Positions 2,399 through 14,587 of a stretch of DNA of 22,477 nt are shown piece after piece. Below the pieces are notes generated by a model that made no database searches, was not told the DNA's origin, and saw nothing but the letters and a program-made list of their open reading frames with translations. The DNA lies in the IMG/VR virus record IMGVR_UViG_3300032242_002026, positions 1-22,477 of that record; one strand, 5' to 3'. Made by a program: the position numbers and the translations under genes. Numbering within the stretch: the stretch's first letter is position 1; each line of letters begins with the position of its first letter. The stretch comes from a virus.

Positions 2399-3139
2399 AT
2401 GCCTACTGTCTACGCTTACGGTCGGGCCTCGACCAGCAAGCAGACCATCACGGAAAGCAACCAGCAGTCCGTGTGCGAGGAGTACATCAAGCGGGCGCTG
2501 ATACAGGAGGGGTACACGTACGGCGGCTGGCTGTACGACAGTGCCACCAGCGGCAGCCGGCCCATGTTCGAGCGGGACGAAGGCCGCAAGCTGTGGGCGC
2601 TGGTGCAACCCGGCGACCGCATCGTGTGGGCCAAGCTTGACCGGGCCTTCCGCTCCGTCGTGGACGCAGCCCAGACCATGCGGCTGCTCACTGCGAAGGG
2701 GGTCAGCTTCAACTCTCTGGACTTGGGGCTGGACACCAGCACAGCCATCGGCCGCTGCGTGTTCACCATCCTCACGGCCTTTGCGGAGCTGGAGCTTGAG
2801 TTCATTCGGGAGCGAACACGCGACGGCCTGCGTGCCAAGCGGCGGGCCGGCCTGCCTTACGGGCAGAACGCACCCATTGGCTGGGCCAAGCGTGGCCGCA
2901 AGAAGGACAGCTACTACGTCCCCGACTGGGACGAACGCAAGCAGGTCGAGGAGATGATCCGCCTGCGGGACGAAGGACTCAGCCTGGAGAAGATCGTGTG
3001 GAAGATGCGCCCTGTCGTCCGCACCAACGGCCGGCGGTGGAACATCAACTCGGTGACCCGAGCAATCAAAGCGGGCCGCTCTCGCTTTGCAAAAGATTTT
3101 CCACAACAGACAGAGCGGCGTCGATCCGTCGCCGTATAG
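2399..3139 (+). CDS. Serine recombinase (resolvase/invertase family)
   Basis: This 246-residue protein has the N-terminal catalytic domain of serine recombinases. YGRAS at residues 7-11 places the nucleophile at Ser11. Downstream lie a VWAKLDRAFRS segment with the conserved Arg residues and the ELELEFIRERTRDGL long helix. A short C-terminal DNA-binding region follows (APIGWAKRG, then DEGLSLEKIVWKM and RRWNINSVTRAIKAG), like a truncated Recombinase domain with a helix-turn-helix. The family makes double-strand breaks through phosphoserine links to invert, resolve or integrate DNA. The ATG follows AAGGAG with 6-base spacing. Its last 74 bases overlap the opposing sigma-like gene. A separate tyrosine integrase exists at 13766, so this enzyme may serve inversion or dimer resolution. 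Confidence 0.9.
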   Translation: MPTVYAYGRASTSKQTITESNQQSVCEEYIKRALIQEGYTYGGWLYDSATSGSRPMFERDEGRKLWALVQPGDRIVWAKLDRAFRSVVDAAQTMRLLTAKGVSFNSLDLGLDTSTAIGRCVFTILTAFAELELEFIRERTRDGLRAKRRAGLPYGQNAPIGWAKRGRKKDSYYVPDWDERKQVEEMIRLRDEGLSLEKIVWKMRPVVRTNGRRWNINSVTRAIKAGRSRFAKDFPQQTERRRSVAV

Positions 3140-3587
3140 TTCGTGGATCGCAGCCTGCCTGCACGCCCAGTTCGCGAAGGCTCTGTCCCTTCGTGAATCG
3201 GGCGTGCAGCAGGCGGCGGGTGGCAGCGGGCAGGCGAGCGATGGCTGCCTGCAATCTGGCCGACGTCTGCTTGGGCGGGGCAACCACGCCCTCTGCCTTC
3301 TCCATCGACACCCGGTCGGGCGAGTCGTATCGCAGCCGGCGGTTCTTGTCGATCTCTTTCAGCACGGCGTTGCGAATGGCGGTGCTGAAGTACGTGGTGA
3401 CCTGCGACTTCGCCGGGTCGTAGGTCATGGCCGCCTTGCAGATCGCAAGGTATGCCACGCTCGTGGAGTCAATGCGGATGTACTGTTTCCGCAGCGTGGG
3501 GTAACGACGATAGAAAGCGGCAAGCGCCTTCGGGACAACCAGAAGGGCTTCTTCCACGTACTTGGTTTGCTGTTCGTCCAGCGGCAT
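3066..3587 (-). CDS. RNA polymerase sigma-70-family-like factor
   Basis: The 173-residue protein has a region 2-like part (about residues 45-85, with AICKAAMTYDPAKSQ and TYFSTAIRNAVLKEIDKNRR), a short linker, and a region 4-like helix-turn-helix at about 117-160 (LPAATRRLLHARF, SLRELGVQAGCDPRTIRRRI). This is the two-domain plan of small sigma factors, which direct RNA polymerase to chosen promoters. An upstream ATG at 3608 exists, but the ATG at 3587 has AAGGA with 6-base spacing and is preferred. It is the last gene of the long minus-strand operon and overlaps the serine recombinase end by 74 bases. A late-gene activator role is plausible but not shown. Confidence 0.8.
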   Translation of the reverse strand: MPLDEQQTKYVEEALLVVPKALAAFYRRYPTLRKQYIRIDSTSVAYLAICKAAMTYDPAKSQVTTYFSTAIRNAVLKEIDKNRRLRYDSPDRVSMEKAEGVVAPPKQTSARLQAAIARLPAATRRLLHARFTKGQSLRELGVQAGCDPRTIRRRIDAALSVVENLLQSESGPL

Positions 3588-3614
3588 CGTGCATCCTTGC
3601 ACGGCCACTGCTGC

Positions 3615-9806: not shown

Positions 9807-10196
9807 CTACCTCATTGGCTTGATGCTCCAGAGGGAGCGGAAGTCTTCGTATTTGCGTGCCTTGCTAAAGGCGAGGTAGCTCCTGCCGGCGACGGCCCGC
9901 ATAGGTACGCACACAGCAAGGCTCCTGCCAACATGCACGCCAACCACAGCATCCACGTTGAGCGCTGAATACCGGCGTCTGCAACGGACGCCGCACCGCA
10001 AGCTGACGCGCATCCTGTGGCCGGCTGTGGACTTGACTTGGATTCTCCAGACACGGCTCCCGCAGTAGGCAAGGAGGTCGTAGCCGTGATCCACCAGCGG
10101 CACTGCCACTGAGTAGCCAGCCATGAGCAGCCGCTGGACAGCGACAGCCACGCCGATCTCACCGATTGTTTTTCCGTCAAGCGATCCATCGCTCAT
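9807..10196 (-). CDS. PD-(D/E)XK endonuclease-like protein (PDDEXK_5-like)
   Basis: The 129-residue product carries a clear nuclease-fold order: E13 in TIGEIGVAVA, D40 in DHGYDLLAYC, and Q53-V-K55 in RIQVKST. This resembles the PD-(D/E)XK family 5. The ATG at 10196 follows GGAGG with 4-base spacing and overlaps the helicase stop (TGATG). Its position after a helicase suggests joint work on replication or recombination intermediates. The C-terminus (VAGRSYLAFSKARKYED) supports a DNA-binding role, but specificity is not visible. Confidence 0.8.
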   Translation of the reverse strand: MSDGSLDGKTIGEIGVAVAVQRLLMAGYSVAVPLVDHGYDLLAYCGSRVWRIQVKSTAGHRMRVSLRCGVRCRRRYSALNVDAVVGVHVGRSLAVCVPMRAVAGRSYLAFSKARKYEDFRSLWSIKPMR

Positions 10197-11722
10197 CACG
10201 CCTCCTGCTTGGAAGCCTCCGGGTTCCGACGGCCAAGTTCCCTCCTGACCGCTGCCTTGAACGGGGTCTCCTTGCGCTGCGACTGAAGCACCCACGACAG
10301 GTAGCCTGCCGGGATACTGTCAAGCCGCACGCCCTTGTACTGGCCGTACATCATCCGCCAGCCACGACGCTTCTGGCCCTCTGGCTCAGCGAACAGGTCG
10401 CGGGTGTGCTGATCGAACGACACGCCAACGATGAGCTGCTTCCGCTTCTCCATGAGCGCCGAAGCCTGTGCCTCAAGCTCGGCCTGCTCGAATGCGTCGG
10501 CCTCACGGATGGCCTCTAGCGGATCCACGCCTTCGGCTGAGAGCGTTCCTGCCAGACGCTCCCTGCGGGCCGGAGACTTGCGAAGCTGATGGTCGAGGAC
10601 GTCGAACACGGACAGCAGCTGGTGCTTGCTGCTGGCTCCGGTGATGTCGTAAACGTTGAAGTGCGTCTTGTCGCTGGCCGCAATCGCCGCCTGCCGCTGC
10701 TCCTTCGTCATGTCCGAACTGATGACGCCCGGCAGGGGCCGCGTGCCTCTGCCGATGCGTTGCTCATAGCGGGACAGCGAGCGCGTTGGAGCCGCCATAT
10801 AGATGTTGCGGAGGTGTGGGAAATCCCAGCCGTACCCTAAGATGCCGACGTTGACGATGATCTTGCTGTCGCCGCCAACGAAGGCAGCCATGTTCGCCTT
10901 CCGCTCGACCAAGTCCTGCTTGCTGTGGACGACGCTGACGTTGGCCCCGTACCGCTGGAACACCTCGACCAGCAGCTTGGCCTGCCGGACGCAGTGCGCG
11001 TAGACGACTGACGGCTGGCCCTTGTACGTGGACAGGACGAGGCTTGTGACCTCTTGTGCGCAATGCTCTGCCGTCAGGACTGCGGCCAGCTGCTTCTTGT
11101 CCCACTCGCCGGCCACCTCGTCCACCATCGTCAGGTCGAAGCTGGTGGCTTCGGACAGGAAGCACTTGGGCGGGATGAGGTATGCGTCGTCAATGGCCTC
11201 TCGCAGCGGGTACACGACCTGCGGGCGTGGGAAGTACCGCAGCCCCTTGCCCTTGCCCTTGTAAGGCGTGGCGGAGCAGCCGACGACCGTAGCCCCACGT
11301 GCCTCGAACCACTGGAGCATCTCCTCCATCTTCGGAGTGATGCCCACGTGGCACTCGTCCACCATCACAAGGCTGACGCGCTCGTAGGCCCGTGCCGCAT
11401 AGCGCCGCCTGGACAGCAGGCTGGAGCGGGACGCAACGATGACACGGTTGCGCAGCCCCTCAATGCTCTCGGCGTACATGCCTCCCTGCTCGACATCGCA
11501 CGGTTCGTCAAGCCGCTTCTCCAGCCGGCTCTTGGCTTGGTGCATCAAGTCGATCAGCGGGGCAATGACCAGCGGGTAGCGGGCAAGCCGGCACAGCTCC
11601 GCAATGACCTCCGTCTTGCCGGTGCCGACTGGCAGGCAGAACGTGATCCTGCGGTCGCCCTGCTTGGCGGCACGGCACACTTCCCGCACGGTGCTGATCT
11701 GGTAGTCACGCAGGACAACCAT
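10196..11722 (-). CDS. Superfamily 2 DEAD/DEAH-type helicase
   Basis: This 508-residue protein has the SF2 helicase motifs in order: Q-motif-like LRDYQ, Walker A PVGTGKT (residues 31-37), motif II DECH (122-125), motif III SATP (150-153), and motif VI QRIGRGTRP in the second half. It looks like a type III/ResIII-related phage helicase and probably unwinds DNA during replication or recombination using ATP. The ATG at 11722 overlaps the previous stop (TGATG) and follows GAGG with 5-base spacing. The open frame further upstream to 11830 overlaps the small basic protein gene and is not used. The C-terminal third shows no additional known domain. Confidence 0.93.
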   Translation of the reverse strand: MVVLRDYQISTVREVCRAAKQGDRRITFCLPVGTGKTEVIAELCRLARYPLVIAPLIDLMHQAKSRLEKRLDEPCDVEQGGMYAESIEGLRNRVIVASRSSLLSRRRYAARAYERVSLVMVDECHVGITPKMEEMLQWFEARGATVVGCSATPYKGKGKGLRYFPRPQVVYPLREAIDDAYLIPPKCFLSEATSFDLTMVDEVAGEWDKKQLAAVLTAEHCAQEVTSLVLSTYKGQPSVVYAHCVRQAKLLVEVFQRYGANVSVVHSKQDLVERKANMAAFVGGDSKIIVNVGILGYGWDFPHLRNIYMAAPTRSLSRYEQRIGRGTRPLPGVISSDMTKEQRQAAIAASDKTHFNVYDITGASSKHQLLSVFDVLDHQLRKSPARRERLAGTLSAEGVDPLEAIREADAFEQAELEAQASALMEKRKQLIVGVSFDQHTRDLFAEPEGQKRRGWRMMYGQYKGVRLDSIPAGYLSWVLQSQRKETPFKAAVRRELGRRNPEASKQEA

Positions 11723-11979
11723 CACGACCTCGCCTTCTTCTTGCGGGTGCGGGTCTTCTTGGGTGCGGCGGCCTTCGGCTGAGGCTCGACCGGCTCCGCA
11801 GGCACGACAGGCTCCACGACCTGCGGCCACCGGGCCTGCAAGCGGGACAAGATTTCAACCTCCGCCAGAACTTGCGGAAGGAACTCGACGCAGAACTCCA
11901 GAGCATCGTCCGGTGACAGACGCTGCCTCGCAGCTGCGTAAGCGAAAGCACGACAGATGGTGATGAGCTGTTCGTTCAT
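11722..11979 (-). CDS. Small protein with basic C-terminal tail, 85 residues
   Basis: The N-terminal half is helical (MNEQLITICRAFAYAAARQR, ALEFCVEFLPQVLAEV). It is followed by a proline-rich stretch and a basic tail (KAAAPKKTRTRKKKARS) suited to nucleic acid binding. The longer frame to 12201 is arginine-rich and looks non-coding. No strong Shine-Dalgarno precedes ATG 11979. It lies between the ERF gene and the helicase and could assist either, though this is context only. Confidence 0.55.
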   Translation of the reverse strand: MNEQLITICRAFAYAAARQRLSPDDALEFCVEFLPQVLAEVEILSRLQARWPQVVEPVVPAEPVEPQPKAAAPKKTRTRKKKARS

Positions 11980-12055: not shown

Positions 12056-12742
12056 TCAGGCAGGGGCCAACGCCGGCTCCTGCTTCTGCGTGGTCTTCGG
12101 TGCGGCGGCGGGCGTCTTGCCCTCCAAGTCCGCAGCCAGCTTCTCCATGCGGGACAGAGCCGCCTGCGTGAGCGTGCCTTCGATGACACGCTGCTTGGCA
12201 CGGGTCAGCACGGCGTTCCGGTCGGCGGTGGTCTTCGATGCACGAAGCTTGTCGCAGCCGATCCGCTCGAACTGGGACTCCTCGTTGACCGCAGCCTCGA
12301 CCGACACCCGGTTGGCGGTGGCACCGTCGTCGTCGTCGTCGGCAGCGATGCCAACGATGGCACACAGGGCGATCCGCTTGAGGTACGTCGCCGCCGCCGC
12401 CAGCTTCTGCGGTTCGATGTTGCCCTTGAGGGGCAGGTACGAACGCTGGAACTGGCCGCTCTTGTGGCCGATGGTGGTGACCAACATCAGCGCCCCCTCG
12501 TCCGAGAACGGAGCGAAGGACTGCGTGATCGTCAGGCCGTTCTCTGAGAGCGGCTGGCGGATCGTGTCGAAGATGGTGGCAAGGTCGGCGTAGTCGGGGA
12601 TCGGCTGGCCCGACTTGTCACGCTTGGCGAAGTGCGACACGCAGGTGCGCGGTGCGTTGCGGGACGCCCCGAACGCAACCGACATGGCTGCAAACAGTTC
12701 GTTGACATGGTCGCTCTGTTCTTTCCAAATGGAATGATTCAC
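12056..12742 (-). CDS. erf: ERF-family single-strand annealing protein
   Basis: The 228-residue protein matches the ERF family of phage annealing proteins. It has YADLATIFDTIRQPLSENGL, SDEGALMLVTTIGHKSG, and the IEPQKLAAAATYLKRIALC signature, followed by GIAADDDDDG. The family binds single-stranded DNA and promotes strand annealing and phage genome circularisation. The start is the GTG at 12742, which overlaps the exonuclease stop (GTGA) and follows GGGGAG with 6-base spacing; upstream ATG 12811 lies inside the exonuclease gene. The C-terminus is Ala/Pro/Gln-rich and probably disordered. With the exonuclease it makes a RecE/RecT-like pair. Confidence 0.92.
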   Translation of the reverse strand: MNHSIWKEQSDHVNELFAAMSVAFGASRNAPRTCVSHFAKRDKSGQPIPDYADLATIFDTIRQPLSENGLTITQSFAPFSDEGALMLVTTIGHKSGQFQRSYLPLKGNIEPQKLAAAATYLKRIALCAIVGIAADDDDDGATANRVSVEAAVNEESQFERIGCDKLRASKTTADRNAVLTRAKQRVIEGTLTQAALSRMEKLAADLEGKTPAAAPKTTQKQEPALAPA

Positions 12743-13767
12743 TGCATTCTCCCCAGAATGTGTGCCGGAAACTGAAGTTCGGTGACCTCGCCGTGACGAT
12801 CCGGCATCCACCAGTCGAGGTCTTCACGCAATCGAAGTTCGTTGAGCGCCTTGTCCATGAGCCGCTCGCCCTCTGCGACGAGGGGGGCCGGGAGCGTCAC
12901 GACCTGACAGTCGTGCGGCAGGGCGGTGGACACCACGATGAACCGGAGGGGGGCGGGCTCCATCCCGCAAGCCTCCATCCCCCTCCGATACCAAGCGTCC
13001 TGTAGGTGGTACTTGAACGTCAGTACAGCCTTCCACCAGTCGGCAAGGATGTCCGACTCGCGGGTGGTCTTGAGGTCAAGCACCAGCCCGTTGGAGGTCA
13101 CGCAGTCGAAGCGGCAGCGCAGGCGGTGGCCGTTGCTGTCCGTCCAGCGGACGCTGATTTCCCGCCCCACCACAGTGTCGAGAAGCTCGACGGCGGCGGG
13201 GTTCGCCTTGATGGCGGCGATCTCTGCCCGAAGCTGTGCCATCTCCTTCGGGGCGACGACGGTGGCGTCACGCCCGAAGTGATCGGCAATCCACTTTTTG
13301 GATTCCTTGCCCGGCAACCCTGTCGGGGTTAGGGTGTCTTCTGGAGGAACCGCAAACGAGTCAAGGACGGCATCGCCCTTCTCCAGCCATTCGTGCAGCA
13401 GCGAGCCATGATCGGTGGCCGCACTGCTGAACGAAGGTATAGAGCGGGTGACGTAGCGGCCAGAGTACAGGGCTGGCGAGTCAAGAAGCGTCTTGGCCCG
13501 CGAACAGTTCCTGTAGGACTCGTCACTGTGATAGCTGGCGTTGCTCTCTCCACGCCAGATGTCCGCATTGCAGGCCGAAAACAGGCCAAAAGGGTGGCTA
13601 ACGGGACTCGAACCCGCGACCCCTAGAATCACAATCTGGGGGTCATCGTGGCGGCCAGTGGGGGTGTCAATTCCCTGCTGAATGTGGGGGTTGCACCCCA
13701 TGCCCTCGACGGGAGAATCCGTGACGGCCGGCCTTTGGGGTTTGTTCGCAGCTTGCTTTACCACCAT
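12739..13767 (-). CDS. RecE-like PD-(D/E)XK exonuclease (DUF3799-like)
   Basis: The family core starts near residue 60 of this frame: ASYHSDESYRNCSRAKTLL and DSPALY match the usual N-terminus of DUF3799 exonucleases. Then come LLHEWLEKG, GREISVRWTD, CRFDCV and VLDLKTT, giving the His, Glu, Asp and DxK catalytic set. It should resect double-stranded DNA for the ERF protein. The start is unclear. ATG 13767 has GGAGG 9 bases upstream, but the residues up to the core read through the tRNA-His fragment at 13592-13637. No ATG or GTG lies between that fragment and the core, so a CTG near 13580 is the only later choice. Integration would separate the 13767 start from the gene. Confidence 0.8.
   Translation of the reverse strand: MVVKQAANKPQRPAVTDSPVEGMGCNPHIQQGIDTPTGRHDDPQIVILGVAGSSPVSHPFGLFSACNADIWRGESNASYHSDESYRNCSRAKTLLDSPALYSGRYVTRSIPSFSSAATDHGSLLHEWLEKGDAVLDSFAVPPEDTLTPTGLPGKESKKWIADHFGRDATVVAPKEMAQLRAEIAAIKANPAAVELLDTVVGREISVRWTDSNGHRLRCRFDCVTSNGLVLDLKTTRESDILADWWKAVLTFKYHLQDAWYRRGMEACGMEPAPLRFIVVSTALPHDCQVVTLPAPLVAEGERLMDKALNELRLREDLDWWMPDRHGEVTELQFPAHILGRMQ
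13571..13591. repeat. Short direct repeat beside the att core
   Basis: CAGGCC(G)AAAA occurs twice in tandem (13571-13581 and 13582-13591) directly next to the tRNA-His fragment. Such short repeats near an attachment core are sometimes arm-type integrase sites. It lies inside the exonuclease reading frame. Confidence 0.4.
13592..13637 (-). other. attP: attP core: 3' half of tRNA-His
   Basis: Read on the minus strand, this segment matches tRNA-His from the anticodon stem to the acceptor end: anticodon loop TTGTGAT (GTG anticodon), T arm GCGGGTTCGAGTCCCG, and end TTAGCCACC. There is no D arm or 5' half upstream, so it is not a functional tRNA gene. Continuing outward, position 28 (C) would mispair with position 42 (A), suggesting that identity with the host gene starts near position 29. 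The integrase gene begins about 130 bases away. Phage integrases commonly use tRNA 3' ends as attachment cores that restore the tRNA after integration. Confidence 0.85.
13637..13691 (+). repeat. Three TGGGGGT repeats between attP core and integrase
   Basis: TGGGGGT occurs at 13637-13643, 13659-13665 and 13685-13691, 22 and 26 bases apart, all on the + strand. The spacing of about two helical turns and the position next to the core suggest integrase arm or accessory-factor sites. They could also be chance in GC-rich DNA. Confidence 0.4.
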
Positions 13768-14587
13768 GTCGCCCGACCTCCGTGTCATCTGCAACGCCTA
13801 TACGGCGGAGCGAATCATTGCGCCCGAGTACCGCAAGAGCCTAGCGCGTGTTGCGAAAAACTGTCAACACCTCTCGGCCAAGCGGATCAACCAGTACCTT
13901 GACTCCCGGCTTCATCTGGTGTCATCGACCACCGTCAAGAACGAGCGAGCCATGCTGCTCATTCTGTGGCGGTGGGCGTACGAGAGGGGTCTGGTTCCTA
14001 CCCACCCACGTGGCGTGGCGAAGGTAAGGGCCGACAGGACGCCCGTACAGGCATGGACTTTAGAGCAGTGCTGTACGGCCGTCAAGGGCGCTGCCATGCA
14101 TTCGGGCAAAAAAACCCGCAATGGCGCAGATCGCGGGGAGTTCCTGCGGTGCTGGCTGCTGCTGGGCTACGAGACAGGAGCCCGCTGGGCAGACATCTGG
14201 AAGTTCCGTGACAAGCACTTCGACGGGAACCAGCTCCGGTACAGTCAGAACAAGACCGGCAACCCCATCAACCAAATACTGTCCGATCAATGCGTCGATT
14301 CCGTCCGAAGGATGCTAGCACGCTCGCCAGACGGAACGGTTGTCGGCTGGGTGTGCGGCAAGCGGCGGGCCATGAGGGTGATGAAGGCCCACCTCAAGGA
14401 CTGCGGGCTGCGTGGCACCTCGAAGTGGCTGCGTCGGTCTAGTGCCACACACATTGAGATGTCACAGCCAGGACGAGCCAGACTGTTTCTGGGCCACAAA
14501 TCTCCGGGCATGGCGGAACGGCATTACATCGATTGGGCTCAGGTCCGCAAGGACATCCCCAGACCGCCCGGCCTGTCGCTCAACTAG
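13766..14587 (+). CDS. int: Tyrosine recombinase (phage integrase)
   Basis: The 273-residue enzyme has the catalytic set of tyrosine recombinases: R140 in ETGARWADIW, K163 in QNKTGNP, R233 in SKWLRRSSATHI (Lys230 stands where the HxxR histidine is usual), H254 in LGHKSPG and the nucleophile Y264 in ERHYID. The N-terminal core-binding domain starts RVICNAYTAERIIAPEYRKS. ATG 13766 is chosen because it begins this domain; the longer frame from 13682 adds residues unlike the family. No strong Shine-Dalgarno was seen. It reads away from the tRNA-His core and its stop shares CTAG with the opposing gene. It should catalyse integration at the host tRNA-His gene. Confidence 0.92.
   Translation: MSPDLRVICNAYTAERIIAPEYRKSLARVAKNCQHLSAKRINQYLDSRLHLVSSTTVKNERAMLLILWRWAYERGLVPTHPRGVAKVRADRTPVQAWTLEQCCTAVKGAAMHSGKKTRNGADRGEFLRCWLLLGYETGARWADIWKFRDKHFDGNQLRYSQNKTGNPINQILSDQCVDSVRRMLARSPDGTVVGWVCGKRRAMRVMKAHLKDCGLRGTSKWLRRSSATHIEMSQPGRARLFLGHKSPGMAERHYIDWAQVRKDIPRPPGLSLN

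Follow-up and report, generated by a model that had tools for sequence, protein, structure and literature searches.

In mycobacteriophage BPs and its relatives, immunity depends on integration (PMC4557955), as it does in M. abscessus prophages (PMC9934374). There integration, in some cases at a tRNA-type attB, changes the product of a phage open reading frame that contains the attP core; the split gene encodes the repressor, which loses its 3' end, a degradation tag, and is active in its prophage form. Expression of the Tn916 transfer genes depends on excision and proceeds from Porf7 across the joined ends of the element (PMC11658703): a promoter at one end and the operon at the other are joined only after excision, and the integrated operon is promoterless. 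At tRNA-Asn, ICEKp1 switches promoters according to its state, its int gene lying directly behind the host tRNA when integrated, having the element's own end promoter when excised, and being transcribed in both states (PMC13023037). In tRNA-dependent lysogeny, which also involves tyrosine integrases at tRNA genes, a phage tRNA replaces the host tRNA and the host copy is not rebuilt (PMC10865867).

Integration-dependent control is known for repressors and for transfer or integrase genes of conjugative elements, and our search of the open-access literature found no exonuclease gene split by attP, which is no proof that none exists. Few temperate phages of Planctomycetes have been studied.

Here we describe a locus in which, as in BPs, the attP core lies within a phage coding sequence that integration would alter. 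The split gene encodes a RecE-like exonuclease affected at its 5' end, rather than a repressor losing a 3' degradation tag; whereas the BPs prophage form is active, this lytic recombination gene would lose its promoter, ribosome-binding site and 5' end, and its prophage form should be inactive. The arrangement falls outside the BPs type. By analogy, it would work like the excision-dependent operon of Tn916, with a resemblance to the integration-dependent immunity of BPs. As in Tn916, the attachment core separates the promoter from the operon, although Tn916 is a conjugative element whose join is transcriptional and outside coding sequence, whereas in this phage the core is spanned by the reading frame itself. 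The locus shares with ICEKp1 the placement of an element gene directly behind a host tRNA upon integration, but that gene is the exonuclease rather than int and it would lose its start; and, unlike in tRNA-dependent lysogeny, the core here would rebuild the host tRNA. If this reading is true, control acts on a lytic DNA-recombination operon, and does so at the level of the reading frame.

The exonuclease frame and the tRNA-His core

The window, by which we mean the whole stretch of DNA analysed, is a 22,477-base IMG/VR virus record (IMGVR_UViG_3300032242_002026); the features of the locus are collected in Table 1. The exonuclease matches DUF3799 (E 2e-16) and PHROG exonuclease VIII (E 3e-48). 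Since the likely GTG start of the ERF gene overlaps the exonuclease stop codon as GTGA, ERF is probably translationally coupled to the exonuclease; each gene downstream of the exonuclease has a start of its own. AlphaFold modelled the exonuclease poorly (pLDDT 48, with residues 1-66 below 50), and no conclusion rests on the model.

Table 1. Features of the exonuclease-integrase locus, in window coordinates
Feature	Position	Strand	Details
PD-(D/E)XK endonuclease-like protein	9807..10295	(-)	Same gene run as exonuclease, ERF and helicase
DEAD/DEAH-type helicase	10196..11830	(-)	Downstream of exonuclease and ERF, same direction
ERF single-strand annealing protein	12056..12742	(-)	Pfam ERF E 2e-12
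RecE-like exonuclease gene (DUF3799 / exonuclease VIII)	12739..13767	(-)	342 aa; ATG 13767, then core, to TGA 12739
attP core, 3' part of tRNA-His(GTG)	13592..13637	(-)	46 bases; in-frame translation (Q)IVILGVAGSSPVSHP
C just before core (codon CAG)	13638	(-)	Phages 9 C, 2 G; hosts 23 T
Exonuclease leader, ATG and variable linker (MVVKQA...)	13639..13767	(-)	129 nt; removed if integrated
CATG common to the divergent starts of exonuclease (-) and integrase (+)	13765..13768	.	11/11 core-bearing phages
Tyrosine integrase	13766..14587	(+)	273 aa; PHROG integrase E 3e-17
Shine-Dalgarno GGAGG	13777..13781	(-)	9 bases before ATG 13767
Predicted exonuclease-operon promoter, TTGACA-N18-TAGGCT	13838..13867	(-)	Antisense in int codons 25-34

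On the minus strand the core reads AGATTGTGATTCTAGGGGTCGCGGGTTCGAGTCCCGTTAGCCACCC and spans the anticodon stem to the acceptor of tRNA-His(GTG); the exonuclease peptide that crosses it corresponds to the QIVILGVAGSSPVSHP region. The core matches tRNA-His at 23 loci in Planctomycetaceae MAGs, 17 of them identical and 6 carrying C for T at one position, and because of these matches Planctomycetaceae are the likely hosts. Among 11 phages the core is the same except for one C/T variant, and these phage variants correspond to the two host tRNA variants, C-variant phages pairing with C-variant host tRNA. A junction formed at the core would keep the whole 3' part of the tRNA, so that the host tRNA would be restored, as expected of a temperate phage that targets a tRNA gene. 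The same holds for the adjoining integrase, a tyrosine recombinase whose residues R140, R223, H244 and Y254 are invariant among nine aligned members. An ARAGORN tRNA-His call in L005/L122 (3768-3841), spanning the leader and core of a phage in the attP form, was set aside as a chance fold.

The initial annotation had placed the core inside the frame leading into the exonuclease and had named ATG 13767, with its GGAGG on the integrase side of the core, as the best start, and the sequence agrees on both counts. Including the window, 11 distinct phages among the IMG/VR relatives carry the core, and all of them read it in the same exonuclease frame, in the shared order of an ATG within the palindrome CATG, a linker, the core and the exonuclease domain. 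The linker between ATG and core varies from 111 to 168 nt, with ten different lengths, and is poorly conserved in sequence, yet in 11/11 phages its length is a multiple of 3 and it is free of stops. The shuffle probabilities of all linkers being open have a product of 6e-8, an optimistic figure since the phages share one clade. Evidence for translation also comes from pN/pS, which is ~0.55 in the exonuclease frame as against at least 0.93 in the other two frames, and from the first codons (MVVKQA) and those after the core (SACVADVRRGE), which vary most at third positions. A GGGAGG/GGAGG-like Shine-Dalgarno is present in most relatives. The longest open reading frame, which begins at TTG 13794, was rejected as the true gene; ATG 13767 is the supported start, because the ATG and TTG codons upstream lack conservation and are separated from it by the Shine-Dalgarno. 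The 11 core-bearing phages form one clade, to which core, promoter and start-codon avoidance all belong, and these are not independent events.

Core-lacking relatives retain the divergent int/exonuclease pair with a variable leader ORF; leaders of this kind were seen at L011, L021, L027, L041, L047, L050, L064, L067 and L087. Several of them contain an imperfect inverted repeat around CTACAAGCAGCATGTACGGCCC...GGGC...CATGTAGG, perhaps another recombination site or an operator.

Promoter and start codons on the two sides of the core

The predicted promoter lies inside int, and together with the Shine-Dalgarno and the ATG it is on the integrase side of the core, with the operon on the other side. 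It is the sole match in the window to TTGACA-N18-TAnnnT, against 0.03 expected, and, of the core-bearing phages with sequence in this region, 10/10 have it at the matching position; it was not found in the core-lacking relatives. The promoter needs the int codons TGT, CAA and CTA/TTA, whose usage elsewhere in these int genes is 17%, 19% and 10%. These rare codons are kept in all ten phages while neighbouring codons drift, and one phage (L123) keeps them although the adjacent Asn is replaced by Thr. Because rare synonymous codons are retained in this way, the promoter seems to be kept as DNA and not only as protein, and for the same reason we rejected the reading that the TTGACA box only mirrors the integrase residues Cys-Gln.

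Past the core, start codons are scarce. The initial annotation's proposal would fail if a start lay on the exonuclease side, after 13591; the window has no ATG, GTG or TTG from the core to codon 107, counted from the core. In 9/11 phages there is none between the core and the first domain motif (E-x-x-x-x-YH), and L122, L123 and L018 do have a GTG or TTG after the core. Altogether, 5 of 715 codons in the first 65 positions after the core are ATG, GTG or TTG, versus 130/2436 later in the gene. Among the valine codons of core-bearing phages, GTG accounts for 3/42 early versus 54/198 later (p 0.005); in core-lacking relatives the early and later GTG shares do not differ significantly, and these relatives too show some start-codon depletion. 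Non-canonical starts and internal promoters may also exist.

Host tRNA junctions and an integrated relative

The base directly before the core is T in 23/23 host tRNA-His loci, completing TAG-ATT-GTG, so that a restored tRNA would put the stop TAG, in frame, just ahead of the exonuclease frame. In junctions built in silico, the anticodon GTG, which is in frame in all core-bearing phages and has no ribosome-binding site, is the first start codon left, followed in some phages by a later GTG or TTG. The expectation that integration would deprive the exonuclease of its start is supported by the layout, with promoter, Shine-Dalgarno and ATG all on the integrase side and nothing usable past the core in most phages. 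The initial annotation had allowed two outcomes for the prophage, silencing or expression driven from the tRNA promoter; silencing is favoured, and tRNA-driven expression less so, because the restored tRNA would bring in the TAG, and the one start codon remaining would be the anticodon GTG, which no ribosome-binding site precedes.

A search of host genomes for attL, attR and the exonuclease 5' end, which the initial annotation had suggested as a check, gave a divided answer: the integrated layout was found at tRNA-Met in a relative, and a copy at tRNA-His was not. On contig 271 of MAG G009 (L135, 6145-7082), a complete tRNA-Met has an exonuclease gene directly behind it, followed by ERF, RusA-like and sigma-like genes in the window's order, and the other side carries MutS-, DnaX- and RecR-like host genes, as read from translated ORFs. 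Followed backwards, the exonuclease frame stays open as far as a TAG in the tRNA and no further, and its first 130 codons include neither ATG nor GTG nor TTG. Its register with respect to the tRNA T-loop is that of the window (GSSP). This contig has the form predicted for the integrated state, in a single, more distant relative (35% identical) at a different tRNA; the integrase of this prophage was not found.

Neither attL nor attR of the tRNA-His group turned up in IMG/VR or among the related genomes, of which more than 400 were searched. The genomes searched for integrated copies comprised 72 of the family, 397 of the order and 21 host genomes, and yielded only the tRNA-Met prophage and L128, a distant exonuclease with no integrase or tRNA nearby. 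A profile search of genome contigs with the exonuclease alignment found no relative, nor did a search of viral contigs with the tRNA-Met exonuclease. Among 50,697 phage records, neither megablast with 9 kb nor an integrase protein search gave a match, and an exonuclease search returned distant matches only, near 30% identity.

Two contigs of one MAG (L101 and L105, Loc090907-1m_bin-358) have exactly 141 bases in common, tRNA-His among them, and separate 2 bases past the core, a branch compatible with a mixed attB/attL population, though other causes are possible and it is no proof. In another host MAG (L136, G061 contig 205, 1588-3666), two related integrase genes lie in tandem, one of which matches the window's integrase family (E 5e-54).

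A proposed switch and its alternatives

Our proposal, which we regard as probable, is that integration separates the exonuclease from its promoter, ribosome-binding site and start, and that excision joins them again. The exonuclease gene would be whole only in the unintegrated phage, in which the promoter would transcribe from about 13831 and ribosomes would start at ATG 13767, reading linker and tRNA-His core into the exonuclease, with the coupled ERF next. Recombination between the core and the tRNA-His gene of the host, carried out by the integrase, would leave promoter, ribosome-binding site, ATG and linker at attR, pointing into host DNA, and would bring a start-less exonuclease to attL, directly behind the restored tRNA-His, its frame closed by the in-frame TAG. 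With promoter and start left at attR and the frame closed at attL, the recombination genes would be off in the prophage, or would have no more than weak expression driven by the tRNA promoter, until excision rejoined the gene. The proposal draws on sequence comparison, namely the frame through the core, promoter conservation, the lack of starts beyond the core, the TAG of the host tRNA and the relative's integrated layout; from these we infer that this phage does integrate, that the operon as a whole falls silent in the prophage and that the arrangement was selected as a switch and is not a side effect.

More broadly, and close to an even call, a family of temperate phages may use its own integration as the off switch for an early recombination operon, with the core translated, the host tRNA supplying the stop, expression confined to excised or incoming DNA and possibly no repressor needed for the operon. 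Other phages can be searched for the signature of an in-frame tRNA core, a host-tRNA stop and a promoter kept antisense in int, and how such phages keep their nucleases off in a lysogen becomes directly testable.

A credible reading, though one we hold to be somewhat doubtful, is that the core came to lie in the gene only through the packing of int, attP and early operon and is tolerated there as a linker, the split being real but non-regulatory and lysogeny being controlled by an ordinary repressor. The poor conservation of the linker fits this, as do the core-lacking relatives, which keep the int/exonuclease layout with a variable leader, so that a tolerant leader exists without a tRNA core. 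It accounts less readily for a conserved promoter confined to core-bearing phages and for the synonymous avoidance of GTG after the core, and a search limited to the HTH_3 family found no HTH_3 repressor in six relatives of up to 62 kb. The absence of any repressor is not claimed, because the 62-kb relative (G675; L144, 17900-18286) encodes a small protein with a weak winged-helix match (HTH_24 E 4e-4), which is a candidate regulator there; no HTH_3 repressor was detectable in that phage.

It is unlikely that exonuclease expression in a lysogen is instead driven by the tRNA-His promoter of the host, with initiation at the anticodon GTG or a non-canonical codon, giving a low, constant supply of recombinase. 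The exonuclease does lie directly behind the tRNA in the same direction with the GTG in frame in all phages, and ICEKp1 int uses the host tRNA-Asn promoter in a like layout (PMC13023037), but this GTG, besides having no ribosome-binding site, is part of a structured tRNA, which processing removes from the transcript; the TAG removes all earlier starts; and the tRNA-Met relative has no GTG at that place. Least probable of all is that the tRNA piece is a relic or non-working attachment site merely tolerated by the frame, with integration elsewhere or never. The failure to find an integrated tRNA-His copy would suit such a relic, whereas the 46 bases are retained apart from one variable site, whose variants match those of the hosts, although the integrases differ by up to ~45%; int adjoins the core; the same layout is seen in a relative that has integrated at a tRNA; and the L101/L105 branch is what mixed attB/attL would give, among other possible causes.

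In addition to the tyrosine integrase of the proposed switch, the window's phage encodes a second site-specific recombinase, a serine recombinase of the resolvase/invertase type (2399-3139, plus strand), the gene for which overlaps an oppositely oriented sigma-factor-like gene (3066-3608, minus strand) at the latter's end.
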